Made by a program: the position numbers and the translations under genes. A stretch of DNA of 64,000 nt from Crambe crambe (lineage: Eukaryota > Porifera > Demospongiae > Poecilosclerida > Crambeidae): contig OZ004582.1 of assembly GCA_963924555.1 (NCBI GenBank), positions 7,006,001 to 7,070,000 on the forward strand, given 5' to 3'. The notes under the pieces were generated by a model, which searched no databases, was not told the DNA's origin, and was given only the letters and a program-made list of their open reading frames with translations. Below, one piece after another: positions 28,811-56,473 of the stretch (positions are counted from its first letter, which is position 1; each line of letters begins with the position of its first letter).

Positions 28811-29827
28811 CTATGGTTCCACATAACGATGTTGCAGTACAAAATAGGAAGCAATTATACCGGCTATACCGACTGCACTCAATGCTGCTCCAGCTACTCC
28901 TCCAACGACCGTTCCAACAGGACCACCAAGTGAACCTATTTCCATTCCAGCTGTGATTACAGCACCAATAGCACTGATGATGAGTGGGACTGAATCTGTA
29001 AGGAATTCAGGTGAAAAAACGATAGGCTGTTTCGATAAAGGTTGCTCGAAATCTGCTTTCACCAAATCTTTCTTATGCTTTATCCGGTTGATATTTGCCT
29101 TTAGGAGGCTGGCTTGAGCGCTTGGTTTCATGCGGATTATGCAAGCATACCACAGAGGAGTAAACCAATTGTCTCTGTCTGGCAGACCTTTTTGGTGGTC
29201 ATATCCAGCTGGGACAGGAATGATCTCTTCTGCCACCTCCTTTGGCACACCTGCATTGATAAGTGCTTCATCAAACTGTTTTTTCCATTCTTGAATGCGT
29301 TGCTCAAAGTAATCCTTTTGTTCTTGCTTGATTACTAAATCAGACTGTCCCGCTCTTCTGATCATTTTTTCAACCTTATTGGCGAAAGTAAGAATAATTA
29401 GAGTCCGATTCCAAATTGCTTCACCAAATCGAGATGTTAGCTTCTTGATAGCTTCGATATCATCCTGTCTCATTCGAGTGTCATCCATCCTTGTGCAATA
29501 GAGGACCAAATCTGCCTCACCACAGCCTGCACTTTGCATCATCTGCACATACTCATCTCCTTTCTCCAATTTATCTTGGAGACCTGGAGTGTCCCAGATT
29601 ATTGTTTTCACGCCTTTAATTACCCTTTCGATTGGGATCACTTTGGTTGTGCATCGCTGAAGACTTGTTCCTTCTTCTGTCACCTCAGCACCCACTATTC
29701 CATTTATCAACGTTGATTTCCCAGTCCCAGTTTTACCGGTGATCAGGATCCGCATGGGTTTGTCTTCATTCCATCCCGCTGGAAGGAGACCTTTGGCTTT
29801 TAAATCGCTGAATATCTCACCAGCCAT
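28811..29827 (-). CDS. AIG1/GIMAP-like GTPase with hydrophobic C-terminus
   Basis: Intronless frame of 338 residues from the Met at 29827. An in-frame Met at 29875 would give 354; the inner one, starting MAGEIFSDLK, looks more natural. The G1 loop is GKTGTGKST near residue 31, G3 is DTPG near 80, and G4 is read as FANKVE. The layout, including the conserved YCTRMDDTR and VPAGYD segments, fits the AIG1/GIMAP group of septin-like GTPases, which often act at membranes in immune or stress responses in other organisms. The last 60 or so residues are Gly/Ala/Ile-rich hydrophobic stretches that could form one or two membrane segments. The protein is closely related to the GTPase domains fused to kinases at 44977-45849 and 52927-53778, but it keeps the G3 aspartate they have lost. 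I see no kinase exon upstream. The fold is well supported; the function is not. Confidence 0.82.
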   Translation of the reverse strand: MAGEIFSDLKAKGLLPAGWNEDKPMRILITGKTGTGKSTLINGIVGAEVTEEGTSLQRCTTKVIPIERVIKGVKTIIWDTPGLQDKLEKGDEYVQMMQSAGCGEADLVLYCTRMDDTRMRQDDIEAIKKLTSRFGEAIWNRTLIILTFANKVEKMIRRAGQSDLVIKQEQKDYFEQRIQEWKKQFDEALINAGVPKEVAEEIIPVPAGYDHQKGLPDRDNWFTPLWYACIIRMKPSAQASLLKANINRIKHKKDLVKADFEQPLSKQPIVFSPEFLTDSVPLIISAIGAVITAGMEIGSLGGPVGTVVGGVAGAALSAVGIAGIIASYFVLQHRYVEP

Positions 29828-29939
29828 GGGGCTAAGGCTTAGAGGTTCAAAGGTGGTGTGAATACGCATGCGCAAAGGATTGTGCTGGAATTTGAAGAGT
29901 GAGTACTGTAGACAGGTACCGGGATAGGATAGGGTAGGG

Positions 29940-30850
29940 TAGGTAGGGTAATTCTTTCTGAGCAGGTACTTTTATTCCCAAGAATGTTTGAAGGTGATCT
30001 CAAACTAACCTGTACTCTAGTTTCGCAAGCCACGGCTTGCGAGACTTTGTACTCTAGGGAACTGCCCCACTCAACTATAACTCTCTTCGGTTGCCTTAGG
30101 GAGCCCTCTGGGGCGCACACTGCAAGCTGGGCGTGTATTGCCTAGCCTTGGAGTTACAATGTACACCTAGTGCTAGCTGCGCTCACTCCCTTGCAGGAGC
30201 TAGGGGCTATTCATACATATTGATCCTTGAAAAGAAACTGAACCCATAATCTGTGCCCCATTTTGTTTAAGAGGTTTAGAAATGGGTCAAGTGCTACGTA
30301 CCTAAATTTCAAAGCCCAGCTAAAACTAGTTTGCATTTTAGAACTAGCTTACTACATACAGCTTGTCAGTAAATTACTGCGAGATCCTTGTGTGTTTGAA
30401 AGAATGCCCTACCCCTAGACTTGTGGTTTCTGCCTTATAAAGCTGCATAGAATCTAATAGCTATTTACTTGCCTGTTTATGCAGGATTAGGCTTTTAAAT
30501 TATAACCTAAGTAGGGATGGCAGGTCAAAGGTCATAGGACTGTATAAACTAAAAACTCTTCTTTCTCTTCTACCCTTACTCTACAGGTTCTCAGAAGGCC
30601 ACAGTGAATCATTACATCTACACAGTAGAGAGAAGAATGTTCATTGTTCTCATATTGAACAGCCCTTTAGAGGTGTGCAGGTCATGTGAACTACCCACAG
30701 AGGTTAACCAGACTTAAACACAAGCTTATATAATGATTCAGTGCTAAATCGTATTGGTGCACTGGTTTATTGTTTGTTTTTCCCCCCATATACTAAATAA
30801 CTACATTACTACATGTAGCAATAATAATTATACAAGATTCATGATATGTA
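29940..30850. other. Intergenic between the GTPase and sulfotransferase genes
   Basis: No gene. A small hairpin at about 30020-30045 (TCGCAAGCC with GGCTTGCGA) is the only structure noticed. The GTPase and the first sulfotransferase are divergently transcribed from this interval. Confidence 0.45.
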
Positions 30851-36227: not shown

Positions 36228-38863
36228 ATGGCTTCTCAGTTGAAAGAGTTGAGCTACGGTTCGGTTGAGATCTACATTGATGATATTCTTGGCATCGGCT
36301 CTTATGGAAAGGTCTGCAGGGCCAAGTGTGGTCAGTTACCTTGTGCTGCCAAGCTTCTCCATGACACTCTCTTCCAAGACAATGACCCAGGGACTCACAA
36401 CCTGACCATGAAGTTCCTGCAAGAGTGCCGGTTCCTCGTCTCCATAAAACATCCGAACATTGTGCAGTGTCTAGGCACTATCAGAGATCCTGAATCGAGA
36501 AGGCCAGTTCTCCTGATGGAGCTGATGGACGAGAGTCTGACCAAACTCCTAGAGAGATCCACCACTTTTGTCCCTTACCACATTCAAGTCAACATCTGCT
36601 ACGATGTGGCACTCGCCCTAGCCTACCTCCACTCCAATGGCATCATCCACCGAGACCTCTCCAGCAACAATGTCCTGCTGATAAGTGCTGGTGGAAGAGC
36701 AAAGGTTACCGACTTTGGGATGTCCAAGTTCGTGGACATGAACCCTCGCATGACCCCACTGACCCAGTGTCCAGGAACCTCAGCCTACATGCCTCCAGAG
36801 GCACTGACAGCACCACCTCAATATTCCAGTAAAATGGACTGTTTCTCTCTCGGAGTGCTTGCTATTCAGGTGGAAACAAGGAATTTCCCCGACCCTGGAG
36901 ATCCTACAACTGTGATAAAAGATGCAAGATTCCCAACAGGACGTGCCTTATTCTTCATCCCAGAAGCCGATCGCCGAAAGAAGGATATTGACTTGATAGC
37001 ACCTGACCACCCCCTCCTGCCCATTATCCTTCAATGTATCAAGGACGAGGAGGGGGAAAGACCATCAGCCAATGAGCTGTGTGAGCGACTAGCCTCACTG
37101 AAGAGGGAGTCAAGGTACACACACAGTGTGGAGCAGACTAGGGACCAGACCTCACGAGCACAGACACTGCAACTGTTGTTGGAGAAGAAAGATGAAGAGC
37201 ATCAACAGTCAGCAAGAGAGTTGGAGAGGAAAGATGAAGATCATCAACAAGAGTTAGCCTTGAAAGAAAGAGAATTGGAGAGAAAAAATGAAGAGCTTCA
37301 AGAATTGATGAAAAAGACAGAAGAGCATCAGCATGAATTAGAGAGGAATAAACAAGAGATTAAAGAGCTTCGACAAGAGTTACGAAAAAAAGGTGAAGAA
37401 TTACAAAAAGAGTTGGCCAGAAAAGAGGAACTCACTGAAAAAATCGAAAATAAACTACAGATCACTGAAGATGCTGATTCGCAGCATCTAACTAGTAAAC
37501 CATTATCTGCAGTCAGCAGTGTTCCTGTAAGTTAGTACAGTATGATAGCTATAGCAAATTCATTGGTACATGTAGTGGGTGATAAGAGTTAATTCACAAA
37601 AACAAACTTCAAAACTTAACCCAATGAATATACATGGTAATTGCGTGATAGTAAGCACTAAATTCCTATAATGTCTTGTTGTAGAGTTATAGCTACTTAT
37701 TTTCATTTCCAATACTTATAGCTAATGCAAGTTGTAGTTATAATTAGATATACACTAACATTGTATTTTAATTGGAGTAGATTGTATTCATAGGAATTGA
37801 CCTTCCTTATGATTAAATCATAAGTCTAATTTACGACTGAACTACAGTACAGTATTCTTAAATTTTAAGAATACTGTACTGTAGTTCAGTCGTGAATTAG
37901 ACTTGCTTTCATTTTCTTTAGGTAACTGATGCTCAAAAGGAAAAGAAAAGATCTGATCTAATACCAGCTGGGCAAATGAAACTATCATGGAGGAAAGGAA
38001 AACAAGCACCACAAACTTTATCATCAGCAGTAGGAGCAGCTGTGGTTCATGGAAACACTGCATTCTTCTCTTGTTACTTTAATGTATATTCATACAATAT
38101 ACTTGAAGATAAGTGGACAAAGTTACAACAATGTGAATATCAACGGACCAGTCTGGCAATTGTTCACGACACCCTTACAACTGTTGGGGGATGCACTAGT
38201 GATGACACGCCAACCAATACCCTCCTCAGTCTCTCACAGAATGGATCAGGGTGGAAAGGGTTGCCATCAATGACGACAAAACGAATCCTTCCAGCTACTG
38301 TCACCATCACCACCCACCTGGTCGTAGCAGCAGGAAAAATGAAATATTTTGGACGTGGTGATTGCCTATCTTCAGTGGAAGTATTGGATACAGAGACTCT
38401 CCAATGGTCCATGGCAAGTAGTTTACCTCAAGTCACCAAGTCTCTTCAAATGACATCATGTAGTGGATATGTTTATCTTTATCTCGATGGTAACACTGTA
38501 TTCTCTTGTTCTGTGGAAGGACTCCTCCAGTCCTGCCAACTGCATCCCCACAAACCTACCTCCATCAACAGCAGTAAGAGTGGCTCTATATGGACTGGAC
38601 AAGCAAACACTCCTGTACTAAAAGGATCCAGTCTAGCAACACTAGGAGAACATGTACTAGCTATAGGAGGACAGTCAACAGCAAACATTCACTGTTATGA
38701 CAGAGCCACTGATTCATGGAGTGTCATAGGAGAGATGCCCACCCCACGATATGATTCCCTAACTGTTATCTCCCCTGATAGTGAACTGATCGTGGTGGGA
38801 GGGAAAGGTGATGGTGTCTTAGAAGAATTTTACATTACTGAGATTGGACATTTGGTGAAATAA
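36228..38863 (+). CDS. TKL-like kinase, coiled coil and kelch domain protein
   Basis: Exon 1 (36228-37526) encodes 433 residues. Exon 2 (37922-38863) joins in phase 0 after a GTAAGT..TTTAG intron and adds 313. The kinase (about residues 16-290) has the Gly loop GIGSYGKV (22-29), K42, E66, HRDLSSNNVLL (141-151), DFG (162-164) and PPE in place of APE (189-191), so it should be catalytic. Ser/Thr or dual TKL-type is likely, since HRDLSSNN is not a classic tyrosine kinase loop. Residues about 310-420 are a Glu/Lys/Gln-rich coiled coil with repeats like KDEEHQQ and ELERK. The C-terminal exon has kelch-type repeats (YSYNILEDKWTKL, VEVLDTETLQWSMAS, HCYDRATDSWSVIGEMPTPR), probably a partner-binding propeller. 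I chose the Met of MASQLKELSY because two paralogues start there. The partner and pathway are unknown. Confidence 0.88.
37822..37904. repeat. Near-perfect palindrome at the kelch exon acceptor
   Basis: The 41-base arms differ at about one base and meet with almost no loop (centre near 37863, TTAAATTTTAA). It ends 17 bases before the exon 2 acceptor. The duplicate at 42700-42805 has only the right arm. Confidence 0.9.
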
Positions 38864-39210
38864 TTAGCTAGCTATGTCCTGTAGCTACTGCTTTGATTAT
38901 TATTATTATTTTTTATTTCTTGCTATTTTTACCAGCTACTGTCTTGAATTGGCACGTGGTCTTACATGATGTATGACACATGATCACGATAAGCAAGATG
39001 ACCCATGTTATATACTCAGCGGGCTTGAGCCCCCCCCCCTTTGATTTAGGAAATAATAAGAATAGTAGCTAAAGAAGATTATTAATTTGCTTCCATGTGC
39101 TCAAGAAATTATTGATCAGCACAGTTGTCAGCATGTGGAGTGCTAGTGATGTATAAATAATATAATGCGTGAACACCATGACCTTCACTTTCATCCTGAC
39201 ATTCTAATCA

Positions 39211-39351
39211 ATATTTCATCTGTGATAGATGAATTGCTAATGTTGATTCAACTTTTCAGGAATCTTTGAGTCAATAATCATGGCCAATCTACTCAACAAT
39301 TCCTGGAAAGTTGAATCAATATTAGCAATTCATCTATCACAGATGAAATAT
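39211..39351. mobile_element. Foldback element, about 52-bp arms
   Basis: ATATTTCATCTGTGATAGAT (39211) and its inverse ending at 39351 bound arms that also share GAATTGCTAAT, TTGATTCAACTTT and GGAAT, with a loop of about 34 bases. Confidence 0.88.
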
Positions 39352-39676
39352 AGCTAATGCAAGACCTTAACACTATTCATGTTCAGTTGCACTGATCACT
39401 GAATGGGTCATTTGAGGATTCTGATGTTCCATTAGTTCCTCAGAGACCAGAAACATTTCCAGACCAAACCCATCAAATAAAGGCATTATACACACTCTCC
39501 TGAGGGTTTCGTGATGAGCACTTGGGGTACTTAAACCTTTAGAATTTGGGGCTTCTGAGATTCATGTTTCTGTACACGCTTCTCTAGACATCCTTTAGCC
39601 TGGCTGGCCAGAACAATGACATGGCATCATCTGATGTAGGGGTCATATGATCTGGTTGAAGGCATGACAAACAGTA

Positions 39677-39848
39677 CAGTGATCCCTGGATTATAAGATC
39701 CCTGCAGGCCACCTGCCTTATTATACAACTTTCTAATGCATTGGTCCTTTTATTTATCCTTTTATTATAGAGACCACCTGCAATATAAGATCACTTTCCA
39801 CTTTCTGCCATCCCAAGGGGTGATCTTATAATCCAGGGACCACTTCAC
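39677..39848. mobile_element. MITE-like element, about 170 bp, CAGTG end
   Basis: CAGTGATCCCTGGATTATAA at the left and TTATAATCCAGGGACCACT at the right are inverted copies. CAGTG ends preceded by TA resemble mariner/pogo-type MITEs. The right end is slightly eroded. Confidence 0.75.
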
Positions 39849-40499
39849 TAGCATCAAGGGGGAAAGTAATAGCACAATTGTAGGTGAGCATGCATGTTCA
39901 GTTTACCCAAGTTCATCATGTACAATGTTAGTGCAATGGAATGTGCTCAATCCAGTTCTCAGTATCACACCAGAGTTTTATCTACTGTGGGGGGGAGGGA
40001 GGGGAGCTTCCCCCCCCCTAATGTTACCCCCCCCCCCCAAAAAAAATAATAATAATAATTTTTTTTTTTTTATGTGTGTAACTATAAAAAACTTATCGTT
40101 TAGAAACACTTGGGCCCTCATCTGAGACATCACTAGAACCAGGCCTAGGCCTTCTGATAACAAATCTGTCCATGATTGTTAACCCCACAGGTCAGGCTTA
40201 AGATGGTGTGTGGTTTAGTTCATGCATTGAAGGGTTTCATAAGATTTCCTCACCCAAGAAAAAATCCCCCTCAGTATTGGCATTTTCCCTCCAAAAACAA
40301 GTAAAATTTTCTTTTGCGCTCCGTGCAAGAGGGGGCACATCCCCTCCCGCACCCCCCTCACTGTGGCTTATGGCCACACAATTGGTGAACTTCCCCCCAA
40401 GGTGAAATTCCTAGATGAAACCCTGCACACTATTATCACCACTTTCTATATTCTAGCTATAGAGGTTCACCAGAGTAACCAGTTATAACCTACATAATA

Positions 40500-40582
40500 C
40501 TTGCGAGCCAGACATATTGCGTGCCAGATGTATTTTCTCCTTCCCTCTCCCCCTTCTTCCGCAATATGTCTGGCTCGCGAGA
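40500..40582. repeat. Foldback element, about 22-bp arms
   Basis: CTTGCGAGCCAGACATATTG (40500) is matched by the inverse CAATATGTCTGGCTCGCGAG. The loop is about 38 bases and pyrimidine-rich. Confidence 0.85.
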
Positions 40583-40903
40583 CTACACAATACCATAGCT
40601 ACGGTGATGAAGCTGAGAGGATCATTAATTGCAAGACTGTCAACACCACCCTCGGAGAATGAACATTTTAGCTAACAGACTTAATTAATAAGCTGTTCAG
40701 AAATTTATTCTGGCTTGGGATCCTCCTCAGGCCAGGAGTGGTTTGGGAACTGCCTCATATCAAGAAATGTAGCTGTTTGCTGGGTGTGCTTTAGGGTATT
40801 GTTAAGCAAAAGTGGGCATGGCCGTGAAAATTTTTTCCCCCACACAAGTGCAAGGATATCCTTCAGCCACCCCTTTTCTAAAATCCTGGCTACAGCCCTG
40901 TAT

Positions 40904-41230
40904 AGCATGACACAACTGATTTCAGTGCAGCAACAGATCAGATCATGATGAAGTGAAGAGAGAATCAAAGCATGATACAGCAGTACTAGTCCACCAACAA
41001 ATTGATGGAACCCAACAGCTCAATCTGATGGTGAATCAATTAAGCATGAAGAGTGTTGCTAAGCATAAAAGATTTAGACTGAGTAAATAAAGTTGCTTCT
41101 GATAAAACTAGCTATAGCAGCTAATGAAGACCGAATTGAAAATGTCTGCACTTCATTGTTTCAAGGAGAAAATGACACGACACTTCAATGGCTTTCTTGT
41201 ACACCATTTTACTTTAGTTGTAGAAAGGAA
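40904..41230. repeat. Segmental duplication, first copy
   Basis: Nearly identical to 43795-44105 (GTATAGCATGACACAACTGA onward). It is part of a larger tandem duplication that also includes the kelch exon. No coding sequence is recognised in it. Confidence 0.85.
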
Positions 41231-41929
41231 ATGGCGGCTGAAAATAATGAGATTGGAAATGGTACTCTACGTAAAGAATGTAGCTGCTAGATATACAGTA
41301 TAAACAAGGTTTTCAGCTTGAGCTCATATTATTACAGTGTCGCATGTGTGCATACATGTATATTGAATATCAGTCTTCTGTGTTGAGTCGAAGGTAGAAA
41401 TCAAACGCTTTCTACTTTTGAAAAAAAAAGTTTGAAAGGCAGAAATTTTTATTGTAAAGCATCAGTCATGACTAGCTAAAACGTGAATAACATTCGATTT
41501 CTACCCTCGACTGTCACAGTTACCTTTACGTAATTCTTCACAGCACCTTTTGACATTGCTAGTCATTATTATTGATATTTATAACTTTTGTGCCATGCTG
41601 TAATTTTTGTTACTCTCAGTCATTTACTTAGCTAGCTATTAACGATGATAAGCTGGTCAGCTATAAGATGATGGACACAATGGATACATACTTATTACTG
41701 GATGTCACATCTTCATTCTGACAAATTTTATCAATACCAATGGAAGTCATAAATAATACAGTGAACTAGCTATAGAGCAGCAAATCTGACATGAAACACA
41801 TTATATACTACTGACATACATACCATTGCAGCTGCCTTTAAGACAGACAAAAATACAATACATCATTATCAGAAAGAAAAGGGTTAAAATATATCACTAG
41901 TTCTAGAGTACTAGGTTAGTGAACATGAA

Positions 41930-42360
41930 GAGGAGAGCGAAGAGAGCATTTGAAAGTGAATTTTCTATTGTGTGTGACTTTTATAAGGAAGAATTTGATG
42001 TAAATGAATTTGCGGCACAGCTGAAAGTATTTCAGACCCTATGTAGAGGTAAATGAACGACCATCTATAAAATCATTGAAAAAATTCTTCTCACTTTAAG
42101 TGTTGCTCAAAGAGCCATGATAAATCTAGCTTTTCAGATGATAGCTATCCATATATGTATCATAGTAGTAATTCCTGCAACAAATGCAACATCGGAGTGT
42201 TCATTTAGTGCTCTCAGGAGAATTAAAAACTACTTGCACAGCACTATATGACTCAAAGTTGTCTCAATCACCTGATGTTGCTGTATTATCACCAAGATTT
42301 GACTGATGAACTAAACAAGTTGCAAATGAATTTATATCTGCAAAGGAACAGCATAATACT
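41930..42360 (+). mobile_element. hAT-type transposase remnant
   Basis: Translated pieces in shifted frames include DFYKEEFDVNEFAAQLKVF and, near 42165-42245, VVIPATNATSECSFSALRRI followed by KNYLHST. The second matches the conserved C-terminal dimerisation motif of hAT transposases. The frame is interrupted several times and no terminal repeats were found, so this is a fossil. Confidence 0.7.
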
Positions 42361-42804
42361 GTATTTGCTAAATACTCCCCACATAGCTACATAGCTACTC
42401 ACAAGTCCGAAGGTCAACCTGACCACTCAAAAATTCCTAACTCCACCCTTGTACATGCAGTGGGTGATAGAGTTAATACATAAAAATAAACTTCAAAACT
42501 TAACCCAACGAACATTTTGTACAACACATGGTAATTGCATGATATTATTGTAAGCACTAAATTCCTACATAATATGCCTCATTGTAGAGTTATAGCTACT
42601 TATTTTCATTTCCAATACTTATAGCTAATGGAAGTTGTAGCTGTAATTTGATCCAAATTGATATACACTAACATTGTATTTTAATTGGAGTAGATTGTGC
42701 TTTCAATAATTATTGATGCATTCATAGGAATTGACCTTCCTTATGATTTAAGAATGCTGTAGTTCAGTCATGAATTAGACTTGCTTTCTTCTTTTTTTTT
42801 AAAG

Positions 42805-43655
42805 GTAACTGATGCTCAAATGGAAAAGGAAAGATCTGATCTAATACCAACTGGGCAAATGAAACTATCATGGAAAAAAGGAAAACAAGCACCTAATATC
42901 ACCAGTAGGAGCAGCTGTGGTCTATGGAAACATTGCATTCTTCTCTTGTGACTTTAATGTATATTCATACAATATACTTGAAGACAAGTGGACAGAGCTA
43001 CAACAATGTGAATATCAAAGGACCAGTCTGGCAATTGTTCACAACACCCTTACAACTGTTGGGGGATGCACTAGTGATCTCATACCAACCAATACCCTCC
43101 TCAGTCTCTCACAGAGTGGATCAAGATGGAAATGGGGAAAAGGGTTGCCATCGATGATGACAGAACGAATCCTTCCAGCTACTGTCACCATCACCACCCA
43201 CCTGGTCGTAGCAGCAGGAGCAAAGGAATATTTTGGTGATGGCCTATCTACAGTGGAAGTATTGGATACAGAGACTCTCCAATGGTCCATGGCAAGTAGT
43301 TTACCTCAAGACATTAAGTATCCTCAAATGACATGCAGTGGATATGTTTATCTCTCTGATGATAACACTGTATTCTCTTGTTCTGTGGAAGGACTCCTCC
43401 AGTCCTGCCAACTGTCTCCCCACAAGCCTACCTCCATCAACAGCAGTAAGAGTGGCTCTATATGGACTAGACAAGCAAACATTCCTGGACTGGGTGGATC
43501 CAGTCTAGCAACACTAGGAGAACATGTACTAGCTATAGGAGGAGTGTCAACAGCAAACATTCACTGTTATGACAGAGCCACTGATTCATGGAGTGTCATA
43601 GGAGAGATGTCCACCCCACGATATAGTGCCCTATATCTTTACCAGCTACTGTCTT
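42805..43655 (+). pseudogene. Broken duplicate of the kelch exon
   Basis: Copy of exon 2 of the kinase-kelch gene with its splice acceptor (TTTAAAG) intact. An 8-base deletion near 42890 shifts the frame, with a stop expected near 42950. Its 3' end is cut: after STPRY it jumps to sequence that in the parent lies beyond the stop codon (ACCAGCTACTGTCTTGAATT, 38934 and 43639). Intron sequence upstream (from 42451, matching 37566) is duplicated too, but no kinase exon is present. The long frame from 42917 is only the remnant. Confidence 0.85.
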
Positions 43656-43794
43656 GAATTGGCACGTGGTCTTACATGATGTATGACACATGATCATGAT
43701 AAGCAAGATGACCCATGTTTTATGGTGTTAGGACTAACTCTACATCATTAAAAACAAGTTGCTATGCAATTGGTTTATGCGAGCTGGTATATAG

Positions 43795-44190
43795 CATGAC
43801 ACAACTGATTTCAGTGCAGCAACAGATCAGATCATGATGAAGTGAAGAGAGAATCAAAGCATGATACAGCAGTACTAGTCCACCAACAAATTGATGGAAC
43901 CCAACAGCTCAATCTGATGGTGAATCAATTAAGCATGAAGAGTGTTGCTAAGCATAAAAGATTTAGACAGAGTCAATAAAGTTGCTTCTGATAAAACTAG
44001 CTATAGCAGCTAATGAAGACCGAATTGAAAATGTCTGCACTTCATCGTTTCAAGGAGAAAATGACACGACACTTCAATGGCCTTTCCTGTACACCATTTT
44101 ACTTTATATCTGAGCATGGCATCCATTCATTTTGACAAATTTTATCAACAGCTTCAAATACCAATGGAGGTCATAAATAATACAGTGAAC
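43795..44190. repeat. Segmental duplication, second copy
   Basis: 43795-44105 matches 40904-41220. About 44120-44190 matches about 41705-41770 (TTTTGACAAATTTTATCAA against TCTGACAAATTTTATCAA). It continues the tandem duplication carrying the broken kelch exon. Confidence 0.8.
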
Positions 44191-44199
44191 TGGCTGTGA

Positions 44200-44970
44200 G
44201 TATTGGCTAGTCTGTAATAATACACAGGAATCACATAACCAGAATAATGACAGAATATAAAGTTTAGAATAGGGTAAAACGGGGTAATTCTGGTCACTCT
44301 TTAGGACTGCTATGTTCAGTCCATTGAAACACAGAGGTTAAGCAAGGATAAGCTTTGAAAAATTTTTTTCCAGATAGCACCTTATTAGTACAGTTTATGC
44401 TCCAAAAAGATAGAGTGCAGGTTGAAATAATGTAGAATTAAAAATAATTTAAAATGTGCAGCTGATAAATTTCAAATTCATGGTTGGCTCATCTATTTTG
44501 CAGTTAATTAAAGATTATGAAGTTGAATTATAAACCTGTTTAGATGCTAGCTACATGGACCTGGAGACAGTTGTAACTAAGTTCTATCAATCATTTGCAG
44601 CGATTTAGATTGAAGATGATAATGAATTCATTAATAATGTCTGGATACTATAGTAGCATGGTCAATTCCTCTCCTCTTTGCCCAGAACCTTGAGGGTTAC
44701 TTCTCAGGCAGTTCCAGACAAAGGTTAAAACCTAATACTTGCAAAGTATTTTTTCATACGCAGTCTGATTTGAGACTAGTCTACATACTAGGTCCTAGTG
44801 GCAATATTTCCTCTGTGTCTGATCTTTAGCTACAAACTAAATACTCTTGACAAGTGAATATGCATGCGTATTAAATGATCGAAATTTTGCATGAATGGGG
44901 GGGGCTCGCCAATTACAAAGCTATACGAGAAACACAGTTCATAAAAAATTAAATCCCCTATTAGCTAATA
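44200..44970. other. Spacer, no supported gene
   Basis: AT-rich sequence between the duplication and the 3' end of the next minus-strand gene. Nothing recognised. Confidence 0.5.
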
Positions 44971-44976
44971 GTACAA

Positions 44977-47299
44977 TTAAGAAATGTTACATCCCTCAGC
45001 TAGTGGCTCTGCATAATTCATGATAATAGGCCACTCTGACAATTTATCTACAAAAGCTTCATCTTTTAAGTCCTCAGGTCGCTTTATTCGGTCGGCTTGA
45101 GCTTTAAAAAGGCCAGCTCGTGCATCTGGCTTCATTTGACTTAAACAAGCATAAAATAAAGGTGATAACCAGTCTTCTCTGTCTGGAAAGCCTCTTACTT
45201 CATCATAGCCAGCCGGAACTACAATGATGTTTTCACTGGAGACACCAGCCTCCCTAAGTGATTCGCCTAACTTTTCTTTCCACTCTTTAATGCGTTGCTT
45301 GAAGTAATCTCTTTGCATCTGCTGTATTTCCTCTTCGCTCTTCTTCGGTTGTCCTTTCTTTGGTCTCCTGATTAATCTTTCAACTTTATTTGCAAAAGTG
45401 AGGATGAAGAGAGTATGCCTCCATATCTGTTCACCGAACCCATCTGTTAGCTTCTTGATGGCTGCGATATCATCTACTCTCAATCGAGTGTCATCCATCC
45501 TTGTGCAGTAGAGGACCAAATCTGCATTACCACAGCCTTTTCTTTTCATCATCTTCATGTACTCTCCTTGGACTTCCACTGTATCTTGCAATCCTGGGGC
45601 ACACCATATGACAATTTTCACTTCGTTACGAGTGAGATTGAATTCTTTCACTTCATAAGTGCCTCTCATGAAATTCCTTCCTTCTACTGCAACGTCAGCG
45701 CCCACGATTCCATTTATCAGTGCGGACTTGCCAGTTCCAGTCTTGCCAGTCATCAGAATCCGTACAGCTTCCCCCTTCCATTTTTTTGGATAATATACCT
45801 CGGTATTTCCAGCCCCTTTTGAAGCTACACTTTCAGATGGATGTGGAACCTATAAAGCACCATTACATAATGATAATAGTGCCAGCATATCTGGATAAAA
45901 ATCCAATATTAGTTGTTACTCTGTAATTTGCTACTCTGCCCCCCTCTCCCCCTCCCCCCAGCTTATATAGGCCTTCCCTAATAATACTTACTGCCGCATC
46001 CATTTTCTTTTTGAATTCATCTAATTCCCTTTTATGTTTTTCTTCAATGATTCGTATTTCATGATGAGATTTCGCTTTAAGTTCACTCTCTTTTCTGGCT
46101 AGTTCTCTTCTGACCTCAACATTTTTTCTCTTCAGATGTTCTTCAATTTTTTGCTCAAGTTCTTTTTGATGTTCTTGCTGAAGTTCTTTAGTCTTTTGCT
46201 TAAGCTTTTGTTGATATTCATCAGCTTTTCTCTTCATCTCTTGCTTATACTCATTAACTGTTTTTTCCATCTTTTCTTGAAGTACTTTGATTTTCCCCTC
46301 CAATTCTGGTTTACGTTCAGCCTCTTGCATTCCATTCATTTGTGTTGAGTCTTCATTTTTTTCCATGTGTACTTGTGGGGTTCCATTTTCAGTTTGCTCC
46401 ATAACATGCAAGTATTCTGGCTCACTCTTCAATATGGCTAGTTGTTCACACAACTCATCAGCTAAAGGTCTGTCCACGTCCTTATCCTTAAGACAATTCA
46501 GCGCCATGGGAAGGAGAGGGTGGTCAGACTTTATCAAGTCAATATCTTTCTTTCGACGGTCAACTTCACGATACTGAATTAGCACTCGTCCGTTAGGATA
46601 CTTAGGATCTTCAACATATCCTCCAGCTTCTCCAGGATTAGGAAAATTTCGAGTCATTATCTGAATACAAAGCACTCCAAATGAAAAGCAATCCAGTTTA
46701 TTGGAATACCCAATTCCTTCGATAAGTGCTTCTGGAGGCATGTAGGCATTAGTTCCTGGACATCTCGTTAATTTGGTTGTTTGAAGGCTCATATCCACAA
46801 ACTTGGACATTCCAAAGTCAGTAACCTTTGCTCTGCTGCCTGAGCCGATCAGCAGGACATTGTTACTGGAGAGGTCTCGGTGGATGATGCCATTGGAGTG
46901 GAGGTAGGTTAGGGCGAGTGCCACATCGTAGCAGATGTTGACTTGAATGTGGTAAGGGACAAAAGTGGATCTCTCTAAGAATTTGGTCAGACTCTCGTCC
47001 ATTAGCTCCATCAGGAGAACTGGCCTTCTCGATTCGGGATCTCTGATAGTGCCTAGACACTGCACGATGTTTGGATGTTTTATGGAGATGAGGAACCGGC
47101 ACTCTTGCAGGAACTTCATGGTCAGGTTGTGAGTCCCTGGGTCATTGTCCTGGAAGAGAGTATCATGGAGAAGCTTGGCAGCACAGAGTAACTGACCACA
47201 CTTGGCCCTGCAGACTTTGCCGTACGCGCCAATGCCAAGAATATCATCAATGTATATCTCAACAGAGCCGTAGCTCAACTCTTTCAACTGTGAAGCCAT
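44977..47299 (-). CDS. Kinase, coiled coil and AIG1-like GTPase fusion, copy 1
   Basis: Minus-strand exons 47299-45992 (436 residues) and 45849-44977 (290 residues) join in phase 0 across a 142-base GTAAGT..TATAG intron, giving 726 residues. The kinase half matches the kinase-kelch protein almost exactly for the first 170 residues (GIGAYGKV, AAKLL, HRDLSSNNVLL, DFGMSKF), then diverges. A Glu/Lys/Gln coiled coil follows (about 325-430). The second exon starts VPHPSESV and holds a GTPase of the 28811-29827 type: G1 is GKTGTGKSA and G4 is FANKVE, but G3 reads WCAPG where the free GTPase has WDTPG, so the Mg-linked Asp is missing. The protein ends GCNIS, a possible CaaX prenylation signal. I infer nucleotide binding with impaired hydrolysis and a membrane-tethered kinase. 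The acceptor and frame match copy 2, which supports the fusion. Confidence 0.87.
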
Positions 47300-47335
47300 T
47301 ATAACGAAAAACACATGCGCGGCCCCGACGCACCA

Positions 47336-47359
47336 GGGGGGGGGGGGGGGGGGGGGGGG
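47336..47359. repeat. Poly-G tract
   Basis: About 24 G residues, 37 bases upstream of the start codon of the minus-strand kinase-GTPase gene and so within its 5' region. Confidence 0.9.
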
Positions 47360-47414
47360 AGTCGGACAAGGTCAATTATTGCTGAGTAGGCATTTTTTAT
47401 TCACATCGCATTTC

Positions 47415-48561
47415 GCGATTTTACAATTTGGGCCCAGTTGGTGGGGTCAAAGGTCAGCATTTAACCCTTTCAACCAGATGGCTTTCCCACGACTTTGGCG
47501 GGAATTTCAGCTATGCTATTGAGAACCAAGAGGCCCATGCTGTAGCCAGGATTTTATGGCTCAGGAGGACCTCAAAGATTAATTATAATGTTACTCAGCT
47601 ATTAAGGTATTTTCAATGCTAATACGAACTATATCAATTCAGTGCAAGTGACTAAGCTATATTATTACCATCAAAGGGGGGAGGGGCTCAAGCCTATTGA
47701 GTCACCTGCTGGCTACAGGCCTGTCTATCCCTCCCACAAAACACCAGAAGGGATCAGAGGAGGTTGATTTGGGCATTGCAAATTATCCATCAGGTGTAAC
47801 GCGCCGGACTGGCCCGCTAAATGCTCTGCTTCTCTTTGCAGTAATTATAATGGAGTGATGACTGACTGACAAGTGATGATTGCACAAAACAACTGAACTC
47901 ACAGACATAGACTGACAAGTGCACACTGTTATACGTTAATATAGCTACTAGTGGCCGGCCCAATGATTGGGGCCCCACGCTCCTAATGACATACTTAATA
48001 TGACATGCATAGCTACATAGTAGCTAACTATAAAGTCAATTATTACACAGGATTGACAAATTCTTCCAACTGCTTTACACCCTTGTTCAGCGCCTGTTGC
48101 ACAACCCTCACTTCAGAGATGCAATGAATAAAATATACATTTCTCATCCTGACAGCCTTTGCACCAAAACATGTAGTTAGATAGCTATACACATAGTGAG
48201 CTAGCTATCATGTTCATCACAAACTTACACCTTTCATTTGTCACAAGATCAGATATCCGAGGGATGTACACTTATGAGACTACTAGTGAAGGCCTGGGTG
48301 GTTACACAGGAAATCCTCTTCTCTCTTTTCAACCATGGCTACTTTGTTGCAAGAAGAGTAGCTATCTCCATCACTTCAAAGAGAAACTGATCTTCACTAT
48401 GCTAGAAAATACTTGCAACTTACTCCTCGTTCCTCAAAGAAGACTCAGGATTAGGATGTAGCAGACACTAAGACTTAGAGACCTAGTAGAGTTAAATATC
48501 ATGACCTTTAACCCCAGTGTGACATTTGACCCCACCAACTGGGCCCAAATTGTAAAATCGC
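47415..48561. mobile_element. Non-autonomous DNA element, 42-bp TIRs, about 1.15 kb
   Basis: The left end 47415-47456 (GCGATTTTACAATTTGGGCC, then CAGTTGGTGGGGTCAAA) is repeated in inverse at 48520-48561 with one mismatch. The interior has only short frames, none with a known domain. The flanking bases do not show an obvious target duplication. It sits just upstream of kinase-GTPase copy 1. Confidence 0.75.
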
Positions 48562-48569
48562 TAGAAGCT

Positions 48570-49325
48570 CAATACATTTTTGGAAGTTGCTATTCCTCGA
48601 GATATGTACGCTTTGAATGAACTTGAATTGGACTGTAGATAGATCTAACAGGTAGATTTCTGAAAATCGACTGAACCTAATCCATCCCCGTCCTGTTTTG
48701 GAGATTCAGAAAAAGGTTAATTGCTAACTGAATTTCAAAGCCCAGCTAAAACTGGTTTGCTTTCTAGCAACTAGCTTACTAGATCTTTCTTGTGCCAAGG
48801 TAAAATCATCTACAAACGCTTAAAGCTGGAGAAACAGCCTATCAAACATCAGGTTAATTACATTCCAACCATTCTTTACTGCGCGTCTATTCTTGCAAAG
48901 CTTTGCGACCTAATTTCGCGAAAAGCTTGTCCTCTGCCCTGCGGCGCCGACGCACGGTCTGCTGTGTTAGATTGACGATCCTATACCTTTCATTTTCATC
49001 TGATCTGCACGAATGTGGAATGTTTTTTATTAGCTAGCTACAAAAATTAATGTGGAAAGCAGAATTACATATAGTTATGATACCATTGTTGCTAAATCCT
49101 GTAGCTGCTAAACTTCAACTGGAAATACGTAGCTAGCTACTTCTTTCCCTGCTCTCTGAACCAAATATTTTGGAGGTAGCCATCTATGGTGGGGATTATA
49201 GAAAAGAATTACATATTACTGGTGAACTCAAAGTGATGTAGCTAGTTAGCTATCTGACCTGCTCAGGTAGCTTGAAATTAGCTTAAGCTTTATAGCTAGC
49301 TCTAATAACTGGCAATGGCTACCAA
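48570..49325. other. Spacer, part of a duplicated GPCR 3' flank
   Basis: About 49020-49330 resembles 55340-55830 and 57890-58220 (CTGGAAATACGTAG, GAACTCAAAGTGATGTAG, CTGACCTGCTCAGGTAG). It is the duplicated flank or intron of the GPCR 3' exons. No gene of its own. Confidence 0.6.
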
Positions 49326-49330
49326 CTCAC

Positions 49331-50048
49331 CATTTCAGTCTCATGCTCTACCAATAACACTCTAGGACGTTGAGACTCTGAATTTGATTCTAGTTCTTTC
49401 AAATTCCCTCTTGTCTCAATTCCATTCTTGAGCAGATTCACGTTGCTCTTAGGAGCCATTTGACCTGCCTATCCATTTGAATGTACACCAGTACATGAAG
49501 AATGGGTTGTGAGGGAAAGGGGGAGGAGGGGGAGAGAAGGCAAGAGGATGGGAAAGAAGGGGGAGAGAATGGGGGAGGAGGAGGAGGAGGAAGGGGAGAA
49601 GAGGGAGAGGAAGGGGAGAAAAGAGGAGAGAAGGAAAAGGAGGGGGAAAGAGATGGAGAGAGGGAAGGAGGAGAAGGAGGGGAATGTGAGGAAACAAAGG
49701 TGGAGGGGAAGAAGGGAAAAAGGAACGAGGAAGAAATAATAAAGGAGAATGGCAGTGAGAGATAAACGGGTAAATTGAGACTAGCTAGCTAACAGGTGTA
49801 CCGAAGAGAGTTCCCTTCCACCAAAGTATCTACGAAGAACACTTGATTTTCTGATTCTCGCCCTCCACCACTTGGTGTATTCTTCTCTGACTTGCTTGGA
49901 AGAGACCACACCGATGAAGAGGCCCTGAAAGGACACCAGGATAGTATAAATATAAGTCAGGGGTAGCAGTGCCTCCACTTTCACTATCAGAATTATCCAT
50001 GTTACTCCCATAATCACCAACAGTGATAATGTTGCCACAAACCAAACC
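49331..50048 (-). pseudogene. Orphan adhesion-GPCR 3' exons, copy A
   Basis: The minus-strand acceptor and frame match the intact GPCR at 58889: VWFVATLSLLVIMGVTWI, then VKVEALLPLTYIYTILVS and VREEYTKWWRARIRKSSV. Compared with the intact gene, residues are missing inside TM6/7 (WIIL for WIIGIF; FIGVVSS for FIFLIIVVSS). A purine-rich tract (about 49500-49730) and the tail exon with GAGACTGAAATG before a GTGAGT donor follow. No exons for the extracellular part or TM1-5 are found to its right, so it is a duplicated fragment. Confidence 0.75.
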
Positions 50049-50663
50049 CTAAACAGAGGTGGAGGAAGCAAATTTTCATTGGTCAGGCAAAAACCATGTA
50101 TGAATTAGCTAGAGATTTTATTGCAAGCCATATTATTTGAAGCCTGAATACAATTATTATTATTATTATTTTTTGCAATGCTGACTTCTCATTCGGTGCT
50201 CATCCCCACTCTACATTAAAGTCTAACTTCTCTGCTTTTTTATAGAGTCATAAAATGGTTCAATTGTTCCACTGTAGCTATGGCCTAAGAAGCATGATTT
50301 TGCCTGCTTAACTAAGCTTTTATTTTTCAGTTATCTAGCTAGCTAAATCCACTGTCCTTTTTTCCTTTGCTAAATCTCTTTTCAGCCTTCAACATGCTCA
50401 ATTACTACTGGACTGACCTTTTCCACATGCATTGTGTCTCTATTTTATTTTTATTTTTTTATTTCTTGCTATACTAGCTAATAGCTAGAATGCCAAAGGG
50501 TAGTCAAACAATATATCTTCATACACTATGCTTTAGTATTTAGCTATATAGCCAGGATCAAGTGCCGATGATCCAATTGTGATTGATTATGAATCAGAAT
50601 CAAGCTTGGAAGATGAATAATAGCCAATAGAAGCTCCACAGACTCAAGTGCCTAGCTAAGAAT

Positions 50664-51060
50664 TTGAAAATCAGAGCAATACTATATGGCAGCAGTGCAG
50701 AGCCCACCACACCCATGATCGATTTTCCTCCAATGAATAAGGGTCTAACCCAATGTCACGGATACTTTTCTCCACATTCTGCTTACCCAAGCTACCAGAT
50801 GCAGTATCCGAGCACACTTTCATCACCAGGTTCTATTAATCCATATGTATCGTGTTTTATCAAGGGAAATATTTCAGTTTGTATTGGATGCAATAACAGA
50901 TATTCTAAATCCCCAGCACCTCCCAATAACTTGTGCATTAAGCACCAAGAATGGAAATAGTTCACACCCCATGGATCAGAGGCACCCCAGAGCATTTACT
51001 ATCACTGTGTATTTGGCTTTGTAACCCCTTGGGATCTTGTAATTGAAGATTTGTAAGATG
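50664..51060 (+). pseudogene. Coding-like remnant, unknown repeat-associated protein
   Basis: A 98-codon frame reads PYVSCFIKGNISVCIGCNNRY then PPNNLCIKHQEWK. After one stop the same frame continues FTPHGSEAPQSIYYHCVF and TPWDLVIEDL. The pattern (GNI..C.GC, P..LC..H.E, YYH) is one I associate from memory with an uncharacterised family common in repeat-rich invertebrate genomes. It is a fragment broken by stops; function unknown. Confidence 0.4.
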
Positions 51061-51298
51061 AAATAGCTATTCAAAGAGCACAAGGATTTATGGATTTTTC
51101 AACTTGTAACTGCTATGACACATTTCTATTAATGCCGACATCTTTTCATTCTGTTGTGGATTAAATGCTTGAAAAAACTTAGCTATGTGGAAGTGGGTTG
51201 CATTGTGTTATTTTATGTTGAATTTTGTGTTCCCAACATGTGCAAAAAAGTTCAAAAGTCAGTGCAGTAGTCCAGTTCAGTCCAGTGAATACAAACAC

Positions 51299-51966
51299 CC
51301 ATAAAATAAAGGTGATAACCAGTCTTCTCTGCCTGGAAGGCTTCTTGGCTACTTCATCATAGCCAGCCGGAACTACAATGATGTTTTCACTGAAGGCACC
51401 GGCCTCCCTAGATTTGCCTAAAATTTCTTTCCACTCTTTAATGTGTTGCTTGAAGTATTTCCTCTTCGCTCTTCGGTTGTTCTTTCTTTGGTCTCGTAAT
51501 CTGTCTTTTAACTCTATTTGCAAAAGGAGGATAAAGAGAGCATGCCTCCGGCTCCACATCTGTTTACCAAATGCAACTGTCAGCTTCTTGATGGCTTCAA
51601 TATCGTCACATCTCAATCAGTTATCATCCATTGTGCAGTAGAGGACCAGATCTGCATTACCACAGCCTGCTCTTTGCATCTTCTTCACTTCGTTACGAGT
51701 GAGATTGAATTCTTTCACTTCATAGCTAAGTGCCTCTCATGAAATTCTTTTCTTCTTCTACAACGTCAGCACCACGATTCCATTTATCAGTGCTGACTTG
51801 CCAGTTCCTGTCTTGCTAGTAATCAGAATTCCCCCGTTCCATTTTTAGCTACCTCGCCCCTTTTGAAACTACACTTTCAGATGGATGTGGGACCTACATA
51901 ATAATAATAGTGCCAGCAGATCTGGATAAAAGTTAACATTAGCTATAATATAATTTGCTACTCTAC

Positions 51967-51997
<31 letters not shown>

Positions 51998-52096
51998 ACA
52001 CACAGCTTGTAGGCCTTCAGAAACAGCCTTCCTTAATAATACTTACTGCCGGCCATATCCATTTTCTTTTTGAGTTCATCTAATTCCCTTTTATAG
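51299..52096 (-). pseudogene. Decayed kinase-GTPase fusion gene fragment
   Basis: Minus strand. 51893-51299 is a broken copy of the GTPase exon, recognisable by VVPAGYDEV, KRKYFKQHIKEW, IEAIKKLTVAFGKQMW and the VPHPSESV start. It has frameshifts, a deletion of about 70-80 bases across the G3 region and a lost 3' end. 52096-52047 is the last part of the coiled-coil exon with its GTAAGT donor. The intron between holds a C run and a CA repeat (51966-52003). The kinase part is gone. It is closest to copy 2 at 52927-55209, just next to it. Confidence 0.85.
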
Positions 52097-52099
52097 CCC

Positions 52100-52680
52100 G
52101 TTGCCATGGTAACAGTCCGATTTACATGGATTTATAAATGTGATACAGTGCATGTAATCATAGCCTGGGGTGGTGTTTACAGGGAAAAGTTAGATATAGA
52201 TTCTGCAAAGTTGATATTGCACTTTTAAAGAGTTGTGCTAGACTGAAAGGTGAGTATATGACAGTATAGAGTTCTGTCCTTATACTAACTACTCTCAGAA
52301 AAGAATTTTATCATTGAACACGGTGCACACGCTATAATGATATTCATTGACCACATTCCACATTTCAAACCCAACAAGCTTTTCAGAAAGTAGCCAGCAT
52401 AAAAGGCAGAACTTGCGAGCTGTGTAACAGCGTGGCTGGTATTCTGCACTAGCTGCCCTACTTGCCATTCAGGGTCCAACCATAATTATGACGCTGTGCC
52501 CCTGCCTTACGTGAGCAAGTTAAAGCACAGCGAGTGGGTGGATTATAGAGTGAAAGATAGTTCGATACCGTATGAATCACGACGTTGAAGTGGGATGGCC
52601 ATATTCTTGTAAGCAGCCAAAAAGTAGCTACATCGCTATAGAGACAGAAGCACTGAGCATGCGTAGTACACTCGCGCGGG
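52100..52680. other. Spacer, no supported gene
   Basis: No recognisable coding region. It separates the decayed fusion fragment from kinase-GTPase copy 2. Confidence 0.5.
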
Positions 52681-52686
52681 CTATAA

Positions 52687-52834
52687 AATAGTTATTAACC
52701 GCGCGCGTGCGGTTTGTAGTGAATTATAAGCACTCGCCCCGGCCCCTCGGGCTTCGCCCTCGGGCCTCGTGCTTCGCCCTCGGGCCTCGTGCTTATAATT
52801 CGACTACAAACCTAGCGCTTGGTTAATAACTATT
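52687..52834. mobile_element. GC-rich foldback element, about 148 bp
   Basis: AATAGTTATTAACC at the left and GGTTAATAACTATT at the right are exact inverses. The arms extend through GTTTGTAG and GAATTATAAGCAC. The loop has a 24-base unit twice (CTTCGCCCTCGGGCCTCGTG). Its GC content is far above that of the flanks. It lies about 90 bases beyond the 3' end of kinase-GTPase copy 2. Confidence 0.8.
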
Positions 52835-52926
52835 ACTTATGATTTGTAAATTGTATTTCATAGCTATCCACTTCACATCATGATAATAATCAACATTACA
52901 AAGCTATAATTATACTCTATTAGCAA

Positions 52927-55209
52927 TTAAGAAATATTACATCCCTGAGCCTGTGGCTCTCCATAATTCATGACACTAGGCCACTCTGACAAATCATTTA
53001 AGTCCTCAGGTTGCTTTATTCGGTCAGCTTGAGCTTTAAAAAGACCAGCTTGTGCATCTGGCTTCATTCGAGTTAAGCAAGCATAAAATAAAGGTGATAA
53101 CCAGTCTTCTCTGTCTGGAAGGCCTCCTACTTCACCATAGCCATAGCCAGCTGGAACTACAATGATGTTTTCACTGGAGACACCAGCCTCCCTAAGTGAT
53201 TCGCCGAAGTCTTCTTTCCACTCTTTAATGCGTTGCTTGAAGTAATCTCTTTGTATCTGCTGTATTTCCTCTTCGCTCTTCTTCGGTTGTCCTTTCTTTG
53301 GTCTCTTGATATTTTTTTCAACTCTGTTTGCAAAAGTGAGGATGAAGAGAGCATGCCTCCACATCTGTTTACCAAATGCAACTGTCAGCTTCTTGATGGC
53401 TTCAATATCGTCATGTCTCAATCGGCTATCATCCATCCTTGTGCAGTAGAGGACCAGATCTGCATTACCACAGCCTGCTCTTTGCATCTTCTTCGGGTAC
53501 TCTTCTTGGACTGCCACTGTATCTTGCAATCCTGGGGCACACCTTATGACAATTTTCACTTCATTACGAGTGAGATTGAATTCTTTCATCTCATAAGCGC
53601 CTCCCCCTCCTTCTTCTGCAACGTCAGCACCCACGATTCCATTTATCAGTGCTGACTTGCCACTTCCTGTCTTGCCAGTAATCAGAATCCGTACAGCTTC
53701 CCCGTTCCATTTTTTTGGATAATATACCTCAGTATTTCCAGCCCCTTTTGAAACTACACTTTCAGATGGATGTGGAACCTGTAAAGCACCATTACACAAT
53801 GATAATAGTGCCAGTAGATCTGGATAAAAGTTAGTTGTTAACTAGCCTTCCCTAATAATACTTACTTCCGTATCCATTTTCTTTTTCAGTTCATCTAATT
53901 CCCTTCTATGTTTTTCTTCAATGATTTGTATTTCATGATGAAATTTCGCTTTAAGTTCAGTCTCGTTTCTGGCTAATTCTCTTTCATGCTCAATATTTTT
54001 TCTCTTCAGTTCTTGTTGATGTTCTTCAATTTTTTGCTCAAGTTCCTTTTGATGCTCTTCAGTTTTATGCTGAAGTTCTTTTTGATGTTCTTGCTGAAGT
54101 TCTTCAGTTTTTTGCTTAAGCTTTTGTTGATATTCATTAGCTTTTCTCTTCATCTCTTGCTTATACTCATTAACTGTTTTTTCCATTTTTTCTTGAAGTG
54201 CTTTGATTTCCCCCTCAAATTCTGGTTTATACTCAGCCTCTTGCATTCCTGTTGAGTCTTCATTTTTTTCCATGTGTACTTGTGGGGTTCCATTTTCAGT
54301 TTGCTCCATAACATGCAAGTATTCTGGCTCACTCTTCAATGTGGCTAGTTGTTCACACAACTCATTAGCTAAAGGTCTGTCCACGTCCTTATCCTTAAGA
54401 CAGTTCAGCGCCATGGGAAGGAGAGGGTGGCCAGACTTTATCAAGTCAATATCTTTCTTTCGACGATCGACTTCACAATACTGAATTAGCACTCGTCCGT
54501 TAGGATACTTAGGATCTTCAACATATCCTCCAGCTTCTCCAGGATTAGGAAAATTTCGAGTCATTATCTGAATACAAAGCACTCCAAATGAAAAGCAATC
54601 CAGTTTATTGGAATACCCAATTCCTTTGATAAGTGCTTCTGGAGGCATGTAGACATCAGTTCCTGGACATTGCGTTAATTTGGTCTTTTGAAGGCTCATG
54701 TCCACAAACTTGGACATTCCAAAGTCAGTAACCTTTGCTCTGCTGCCTGAGCCGATCAGCAGGACATTGTTGCTGGAGAGGTCTCGGTGGATGATGTCAT
54801 TGGAGTGGAGGTAGGCTAGGGCGAGTGCCACATCGTAGCAGATGTTCACTTGGATATGGTAAGGGACAAAAGTGGTGGATCTCTCTAAGAATTTGGTCAG
54901 ACTCTCGTCCATCAACTCCATCAAGAGAACTGGCCTTCTCGATTCGGGATCTCTGATAGTGCCTAGACACTGCACTATGTTTGGGTGTTTTATGGAGATA
55001 AGGAACCGGCACTCTTGCAGGAACTTCATGGTCAGGTTGTGAGTCCCTGGGTCATTGTCCTGGAAGAGAATATCATGGAGAAGCTTGGCAGCACAAGGTA
55101 ACTGACCACACTTGGCCCTGCAGACCTTTCCGTACGCGCCAGTGCCAAGAATATCATCAATGTAGATTTCAACAGAGCCGTAGCTCAACTCTTTCAACTG
55201 TGAAGCCAT
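52927..55209 (-). CDS. Kinase, coiled coil and AIG1-like GTPase fusion, copy 2
   Basis: Minus-strand exons 55209-53866 (448 residues) and 53778-52927 (283 residues) join in phase 0 across an 87-base intron (GTAAGT..TTACAG), giving 731 residues. The kinase has GTGAYGKV, AAKLL, HRDLSSNNVLL, DFGMSKF and PPEAL. The coiled coil is longer than in copy 1 by units like ELQHKTEEHQKELEQKIEEH. The GTPase exon begins VPHPSESV, has G1 GKTGSGKSA and G4 FANRVE, and again lacks the G3 Asp (RCAPG). The C-terminus is QGCNIS, the same CaaX-like ending as copy 1. The interval between the P-loop and G3 is shorter and has a run of four Gly. Both exons are uninterrupted, so the gene is probably functional. It shares its 5' half with the kinase-kelch gene. 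Role inferred as in copy 1. Confidence 0.87.
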
Positions 55210-56372: not shown

Positions 56373-56473
56373 TCTACTTAGCGAGTCATATTCAAATTAA
56401 ACCTATCATATCATTGGACAAAATTAATCCCCATTGTTGATACAGTAGATTCTAAGTCCTTTTTTTATTCAGG

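Follow-up and report, generated by a model that had tools for sequence, protein, structure and literature searches.

Two neighbouring genes in the window, the 64,000 nucleotides (nt) of the sponge Crambe crambe analysed here (contig OZ004582.1, positions 7,006,001 to 7,070,000), appear to join a GTPase to a kinase. Each of them, called B and C below, would encode one cytosolic polypeptide made of a TKL-type kinase, a charged coiled coil and an AIG1-type GTPase, and both would be members of a kinase-coil-kelch family that gene A represents nearby; we put the probability of this reading at about 0.6. We infer the splice joining of the exons, and the function of the products, from the DNA sequence. 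The two genes most likely arose by one tail replacement, then local duplication.

The gene models are simple (Table 1). All three kinase exons match Pfam Pkinase with 134.9-148.7 bits (curated cut-off 31.7) and keep the glycine loop, Lys, HRD, DFG and PPE motifs; the best solved-structure matches by sequence are TNNI3K (E 7.1e-23), itself a TKL-group kinase, and TAK1 (E 2.6e-21). From residue 311 onward the coil consists to 53-57% of E, K, Q and R. The second exon of A matches Kelch_1 (62.1 bits, cut-off 20.1) and those of B and C match AIG1 (PF04548; 49.9 and 50.1 bits, curated cut-off 27). Chance open frames are ruled out, as these named domains score far over the Pfam cut-offs. In each gene, exon 1 terminates at a codon boundary with a GTAAGT donor, exon 2 opens with an in-frame Val codon starting in GT, and the frame is preserved over the junction, giving open readings of 726 (B) and 731 (C) codons. 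The intron of A measures 395 nt and contains an ATTAAA. A first-pass annotation of this DNA had proposed the same three kinase/coil exons and three C-terminal exons, and all of them are open where it placed them. It had also taken exons with a Val start to be interchangeable: the Val start holds for A, B and C, all in phase 0, but some kelch exons of the family start with ATA, ACA or GCA, so that phase 0 is the shared feature.

Table 1. Features of the kinase/coil genes and their relatives in the window
Feature	Positions	Strand	Description
Stand-alone AIG1-type GTPase	28811..29971	-	One open frame; has ATG, DTPG and a hydrophobic C-terminal end; unfused form
Gene A exon 1	36228..37526	+	TKL-type kinase and charged coil; glycine loop, Lys, HRD, DFG, PPE; donor GTAAGT (37527), phase 0
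Gene A exon 2	37922..38863	+	Kelch repeats; acceptor phase 0
Kelch-exon copy	42805..43657	+	About 4 kb downstream of A; frame break near start, 3' end cut
Gene B exon 2	44977..45849	-	AIG1-type GTPase; P-loop GKTGTGKS; CAPG at G3 (not D-x-P-G); hydrophobic C-terminal tail absent
Gene B intron	45850..45991	-	142 nt; no AATAAA or ATTAAA
Gene B exon 1	45992..47299	-	Kinase and coil, 436 amino acids (aa); mosaic, 5' part A-type, nt ~541-870 L052-like
Relic D	51293..52094	-	Final ~15 kinase codons; donor (52046); intron; GTPase exon decayed, interrupted by in-frame stops
Gene C exon 2	52927..53778	-	AIG1-type GTPase; G3 CAPG; ATG-free before P-loop
Gene C intron	53779..53865	-	87 nt; no AATAAA or ATTAAA
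Gene C exon 1	53866..55209	-	Kinase and coil, 448 aa

The tie between the GTPase and the kinase chain is drawn from sequence, and one part of it is the start of the GTPase exon. The genome searched comprises 143 Mb in 119 contigs (numbers with C denote its contigs, with L the loci read, with P database proteins). Among its GTPase relatives that occupy a single open reading frame (ORF), six (L031-L035 and L038) have an in-frame ATG upstream of the P-loop. The GTPase exon of gene C has no Met ahead of the P-loop, and that of gene B has one, residue 33, which adjoins the P-loop at residue 35. Read in this way, neither exon offers a start codon from which a whole GTPase could be made.

A kinase/coil module with varied C-terminal exons

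The genome match tables score best candidates only, and match counts are lower bounds: there are at least 97 rows matching the B kinase exon, at least 129 matching the A kelch exon, at least 96 of the AIG1 family and at least 12 of Cul7. Adjacency was counted for 94 kinase places (three of the 97 rows, being second pieces of a match, were excluded) against all 129 kelch places. Within 4 kb downstream on the same strand, a kelch match lies at 43 of the 94, Cul7/CPH at five and AIG1 at four, B and C among them; at 44 of the 94 there is neither a kelch, a Cul7 nor an AIG1 match. The controls gave one kelch and no Cul7 or AIG1 match downstream on the opposite strand, none of any kind upstream on the opposite strand, and 14 kelch, no Cul7 and one AIG1 match upstream on the same strand, where the 14 kelch matches probably reflect tandem arrays. 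Kinase, coil and kelch together are thus the commonest form found. In some cases one open frame covers both kinase and kelch, for example on C5 of this genome (frames of 666-820 aa) and in 7 of 120 database relatives among the matches listed. Of the two forms that the first-pass annotation had set side by side, the one with kelch is the commoner, at times with no intron between kelch and kinase.

Kinase exons were read at 20 loci chosen from the 97 match rows and in A, B and C. A phase-0 GTAAGT or GTGAGT donor closes 22 of these 23 exons (19 of the 20 loci, and all three genes of the window), the exception being L052. Kelch exons have a phase-0 acceptor that passes the filter in 13 of 15 cases; L041 and L056 fail. 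There is a third kind of partner: a Cul7/CPH exon (Pfam 66.0 and 65.4 bits, cut-off 25) stands behind the kinase/coil exon in L051, L053, L054, L056 and at C13:2062665. Its entry is in phase 0 at each of the three loci whose junction was read, L051, L053 and L054, and in L056 it is placed between kinase and kelch. The proposal of one kinase/coil module carrying varied C-terminal exons is upheld by the 22 donors and extended by this partner, which is an unusual one for a kinase.

Several further observations concern the family. C16:2234364-2259130 contains a run of seven kinase matches, of which five fall in open frames of 708-765 aa; none of the seven has a kelch, AIG1 or Cul7 match within 4 kb downstream. 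At L055 a Macro-domain frame follows a kinase of C15. The kelch copy downstream of A is probably a decayed exon copy. A candidate fusion of kinase and synaptobrevin (P0081) was dropped because the match fell under the Pfam cut-off (21.2 against 26.4 bits).

The GTPase domain and the case for a single chain

The GTPase domains of B and C are relatives of the AIG1 family with an altered G3 motif. The P-loop GxxGxGK[ST] is intact (GKTGTGKS and GKTGSGKS), and B gives a confident GTPase fold of the Toc/GIMAP-like kind; the nearest solved relatives are Toc33/34 and GIMAP4/5 by sequence, and Toc34/33, then GIMAP2 among others, by fold. The G3 motif D-x-P-G is absent from both, CAPG standing in its place; the Asp is present in the other 39 of the 41 aligned sequences. 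This Asp helps to hold Mg; without it, the domain probably turns over GTP poorly and is more likely to have a binding role. AIG1-type domains are known to dimerise from work on Toc and GIMAP proteins. The fused GTPases also lack the hydrophobic C-terminal tail of their relatives. From these comparisons, the B and C GTPases are AIG1 relatives by descent, probably altered in GTP turnover. Animal relatives named in the database are from Amphimedon queenslandica (30-40% identity), and one entry with 37% identity (P0225) is labelled as a proteobacterial metagenome-assembled genome.

Several results weigh against the single-chain reading. At the acceptors of B and C the pyrimidine tract is weak, and neither acceptor passed the tract filter; neither AATAAA nor ATTAAA was found in the 677 nt (B) and 627 nt (C) past the stop codons. 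None of 19 database proteins that match the GTPase and have lengths compatible with the full chain is annotated with a kinase domain, and none of the 120 kinase relatives among the database matches listed is annotated with AIG1. Even B and C themselves are present in that database only in unjoined parts (P0001, P0140 and P0141), which means that spliced fusions can be missed there. The GTPase exon is weakly constrained, with a ratio of nonsynonymous to synonymous substitution rates (dN/dS) of 0.62, compatible with decay too; and P0143, a third exon of the fused type, retains DTPG, so that loss of G3 is not a defining mark of the fusion.

Two other accounts were weighed. B and C could each be two neighbouring genes, a kinase gene with a read-through stop and a separate GTPase gene: kinase frames extended past the donor do run into stops inside the introns, and 44 of the 94 kinase places have none of the three partners within 4 kb. 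We regard this as very improbable, given GTPase exons that are free of ATG before the P-loop (bar residue 33 of B) where single-ORF relatives have one, gaps of just 142 and 87 nt between kinase and GTPase, matching phase-0 splice signals, and an N-terminal extension common to B, C and P0143. It is unlikely, though less so, that B and C are decaying chimeras, perhaps transcribed, in which the GTPase part is inert. Frames that remain open throughout both genes, an intact P-loop, the confident fold of B, a dN/dS of 0.30 in the kinase exon, and the open third fused-type exon in the database, with P-loop and DTPG, all speak against decay, even though the G3 Asp is gone in both genes, the dN/dS of the GTPase exon is 0.62 and stops have already broken relic D, the third tandem copy. 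A single chain of kinase, coil and GTPase is the reading that we favour.

Origin of the GTPase tail and the mosaic kinase exon

In a GTPase tree of 23 rows, with midpoint rooting only, the B and C exons (B2, C2) and P0143 form a single group (100/98) that adjoins the single-ORF pair L031/L032 (95/95). P0143 matches B and C in the N-terminal extension (VPHPSES...YYPKKW) and the CNIS end, yet its best match in this genome reaches 72-73%, whereas P0002, which we take to come from the contig of P0143, has a kinase with 100% identity here. A third open exon of the fused type thus seems to exist in a second assembly, made from this species or one very near to it, and fused-gene copies seem to differ between assemblies. 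Inside the window, relic D shares the junction of B and C, which implies that one junction was duplicated at least twice. The single GTPase group and the junction common to relic D rule out two independent fusions. The first-pass annotation had spoken of a family growing by exon exchange; for B and C, one replacement followed by duplication is a better description than two exchanges. In the proposed course of events, the copy of an intronless GTPase gene would have come to lie downstream of the kelch exon in a kinase gene of this family, or have taken that exon's place, and would have been taken in through a phase-0 acceptor.

A different view of the same exons is that exchange recurs: the phase-0 slot would repeatedly have received GTPase, kelch and CPH exons, and the family would grow by swapping. 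One phase-0 donor does have three kinds of partner behind it, and on C10 a same-strand kinase is followed at about 1.5 kb by a GTPase exon of another sort, with a phase-0 CAG acceptor and no in-frame ATG between the last stop and the P-loop. Four further AIG1 matches lie within about 20 kb of that kinase, however, and in L056 the CPH exon has the kinase on one side and kelch on the other, so that it may have been internal from early on instead of being swapped in. With one junction for B, C and relic D and one GTPase group for B, C and P0143, recurrent exchange seems to us an unlikely source of these genes. The C10 locus (C10:8307582-8310483) stands as a candidate, a possible second fusion of kinase and AIG1. 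On C6 an AIG1 match lies 2.5 kb behind a kinase; it was not accepted as a further fusion because the GTPase frame has its own ATG near the start.

The kinase exon has a history of its own. In 90-nt windows starting at nt 121-361, exon 1 of B is 96-98% identical to A, 86-99% to L041, L042, L046, L048, L050 and L057, and 61-98% to L052; in those starting at nt 541-781 it is 84-97% identical to L052 versus 53-73% to A. The synonymous distance between B and A rises from 0.11 (aa 41-140) to 1.25 (aa 181-290), a jump which means that selection at the protein level does not by itself explain the contrast in identity. Maximum chi-square values in six tests were 78-94, where the largest shuffled value was 15-22 (2000 shuffles each). 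The 5' kinase tree groups B and C with A-type kinases (99/96) and the 3' tree groups them with L052 (100/100), the A-type grouping being rejected there by the approximately unbiased (AU) test (p 7.7e-7). A itself shows a similar contrast against L042: 99.5% identity over the first 420 nt and 89.7% over nt 541-870. By these comparisons, exchange between paralogues took place inside the kinase exon. The first-pass annotation had pointed to discordant trees as a sign of swapping, and discordant histories were found, between the 5' and 3' kinase trees and in the GTPase tree.

On balance, the GTPase was joined onto a kelch-kinase background. A-type kinases bear kelch. For L052 the kelch match is at a distance of 3.2 kb downstream, and as no phase-0 donor was found in L052 its kelch link is less sure. 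Some points tell against this history. The 5' (N-lobe) tree alone does not reject a clade of B, C and L052 (AU p 0.175). Nor was a kelch remnant found behind B or C, with no same-strand kelch match within 4 kb downstream, and the order of events could be either that kelch was replaced or that it was lost before the GTPase arrived.

If so, B and C would be a recent and readable example of how one signalling protein came by a different C-terminal domain, and would show how new signalling proteins assemble. Visible side by side are kelch sister genes, single-ORF GTPase relatives, the junction in common, a relative that keeps G3 and a third copy in decay. The case opens tests of what a new domain does to the control of a kinase, and of sensor-domain swapping in cytosolic kinases of early animals; since B and C have lost the G3 Asp, they are predicted to function without normal GTP turnover.

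Known systems, proposed working and other features of the window

The pairing of kinase and AIG1 domains is not new, although the first-pass annotation knew of no described family with kinase, coiled coil and AIG1-type GTPase in one chain. An AIG gene of Biomphalaria glabrata has an N-terminal Pkinase and AIG1, and the pair is also known from salmon and fungi, according to the portion of the source available (PMC7053062). As in B and C, a single chain is predicted for the Biomphalaria protein, with the kinase preceding the AIG1-type GTPase; unlike them it is from a mollusc, and the available portion describes neither a kelch sister family nor exon replacement and mentions no coiled coil between Pkinase and AIG1 (PMC7053062). 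The comparison is one of domain order. AIG1 multidomain proteins are reported to vary widely in lancelets (PMC12373286, in part). In the literature searched, a partial one with few subscription journals, no sponge kinase-kelch or kinase-AIG1 family is described, and there is no precedent for the replacement of kelch by a GTPase in a kinase array, the G3 loss of B and C or the mosaic kinase exon.

Kinase-coil-kelch proteins of this genome and of database relatives, for example P0040, P0060 and P0068, have the same kinase/coil module (61-64% identity over the aligned part) and differ in bearing, in the same open frame, a kelch C-terminus where B and C have the GTPase. Toc33/Toc34 and GIMAP2/4/5 share the Pfam AIG1 match, are membrane-bound and are not known to carry a kinase domain. 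TNNI3K and TAK1, nearest by sequence among solved kinase domains, have accessory domains of other kinds. In Amphimedon proteins such as P0130, P0131 and P0138, an AIG1-type domain is likewise combined with a signalling enzyme in a sponge, but the enzyme is a caspase (PF00656) and not a kinase, and identity to the query is 31-40%. The combination of AIG1 and caspase is listed in P0130-P0134, P0136-P0138 and P0254, six of the nine named Amphimedon. A GIMAP-type family is said to be lacking in Amphimedon, as far as the accessible text of two papers goes (PMC7053062; PMC11229196); database entries named Amphimedon carry PF04548, contrary to that printed absence.

As for how these proteins might work, the C-terminal domain (propeller, CPH or GTPase) would be the sensing or docking part and the coil would oligomerise, such that target binding or dimerisation at the C-terminus would cluster kinases and lead to phosphorylation in trans. 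In B and C the GTPase, with no membrane anchor of its own, would act through a partner-binding surface and not through GTP turnover. The most likely setting is microbe recognition or the control of immunity GTPases; the label of receptor, which the first-pass annotation had considered, is not supported. In the sponge Dysidea avara, expression of GIMAP-family genes changes on meeting symbiont microbes (PMC11229196, seen in excerpt), which makes an immune setting plausible, no more.

A wider analogy may be considered as well. Plants have given rise to the concept of integrated decoys, and by analogy a fast-evolving cytosolic kinase array in an animal might capture copies of the animal's own immunity-type GTPases as bait, an idea that we hold to be distinctly unlikely. 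The captured GTPase would lose first the membrane tail and later the catalytic G3 Asp; the surface bound by foreign effectors or other GTPases would be kept, and the fused kinase would report tampering. The kinase part, for its part, seems to be reshuffled by paralogue exchange much as in other recognition systems.

The rest of the window holds unrelated genes and repeats. A long open frame at 60173-62446 (-), with DDE_1, Tc5-type helix-turn-helix and Psq domains, and with a C-terminal match to PHD that is weak and under the cut-off, is what we take to be a pogo/Tigger-like transposase gene. Stretches of a secretin-type G-protein-coupled receptor flank it on the same strand (62793-63191 and 58214-58900), and it probably sits in an intron of that receptor gene. 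Long (CT)n/(GA)n simple repeats at 17220-17711 and 56382-56860 give rise to spurious open frames. A C2H2 zinc-finger protein (Pfam zf-C2H2) is encoded at 4730-5857 (+), presumably resembling an EGR/KLF-type factor, and three sulfotransferase (PF00685) pieces at 30845-35106 (+) are probably two or more tandem genes.

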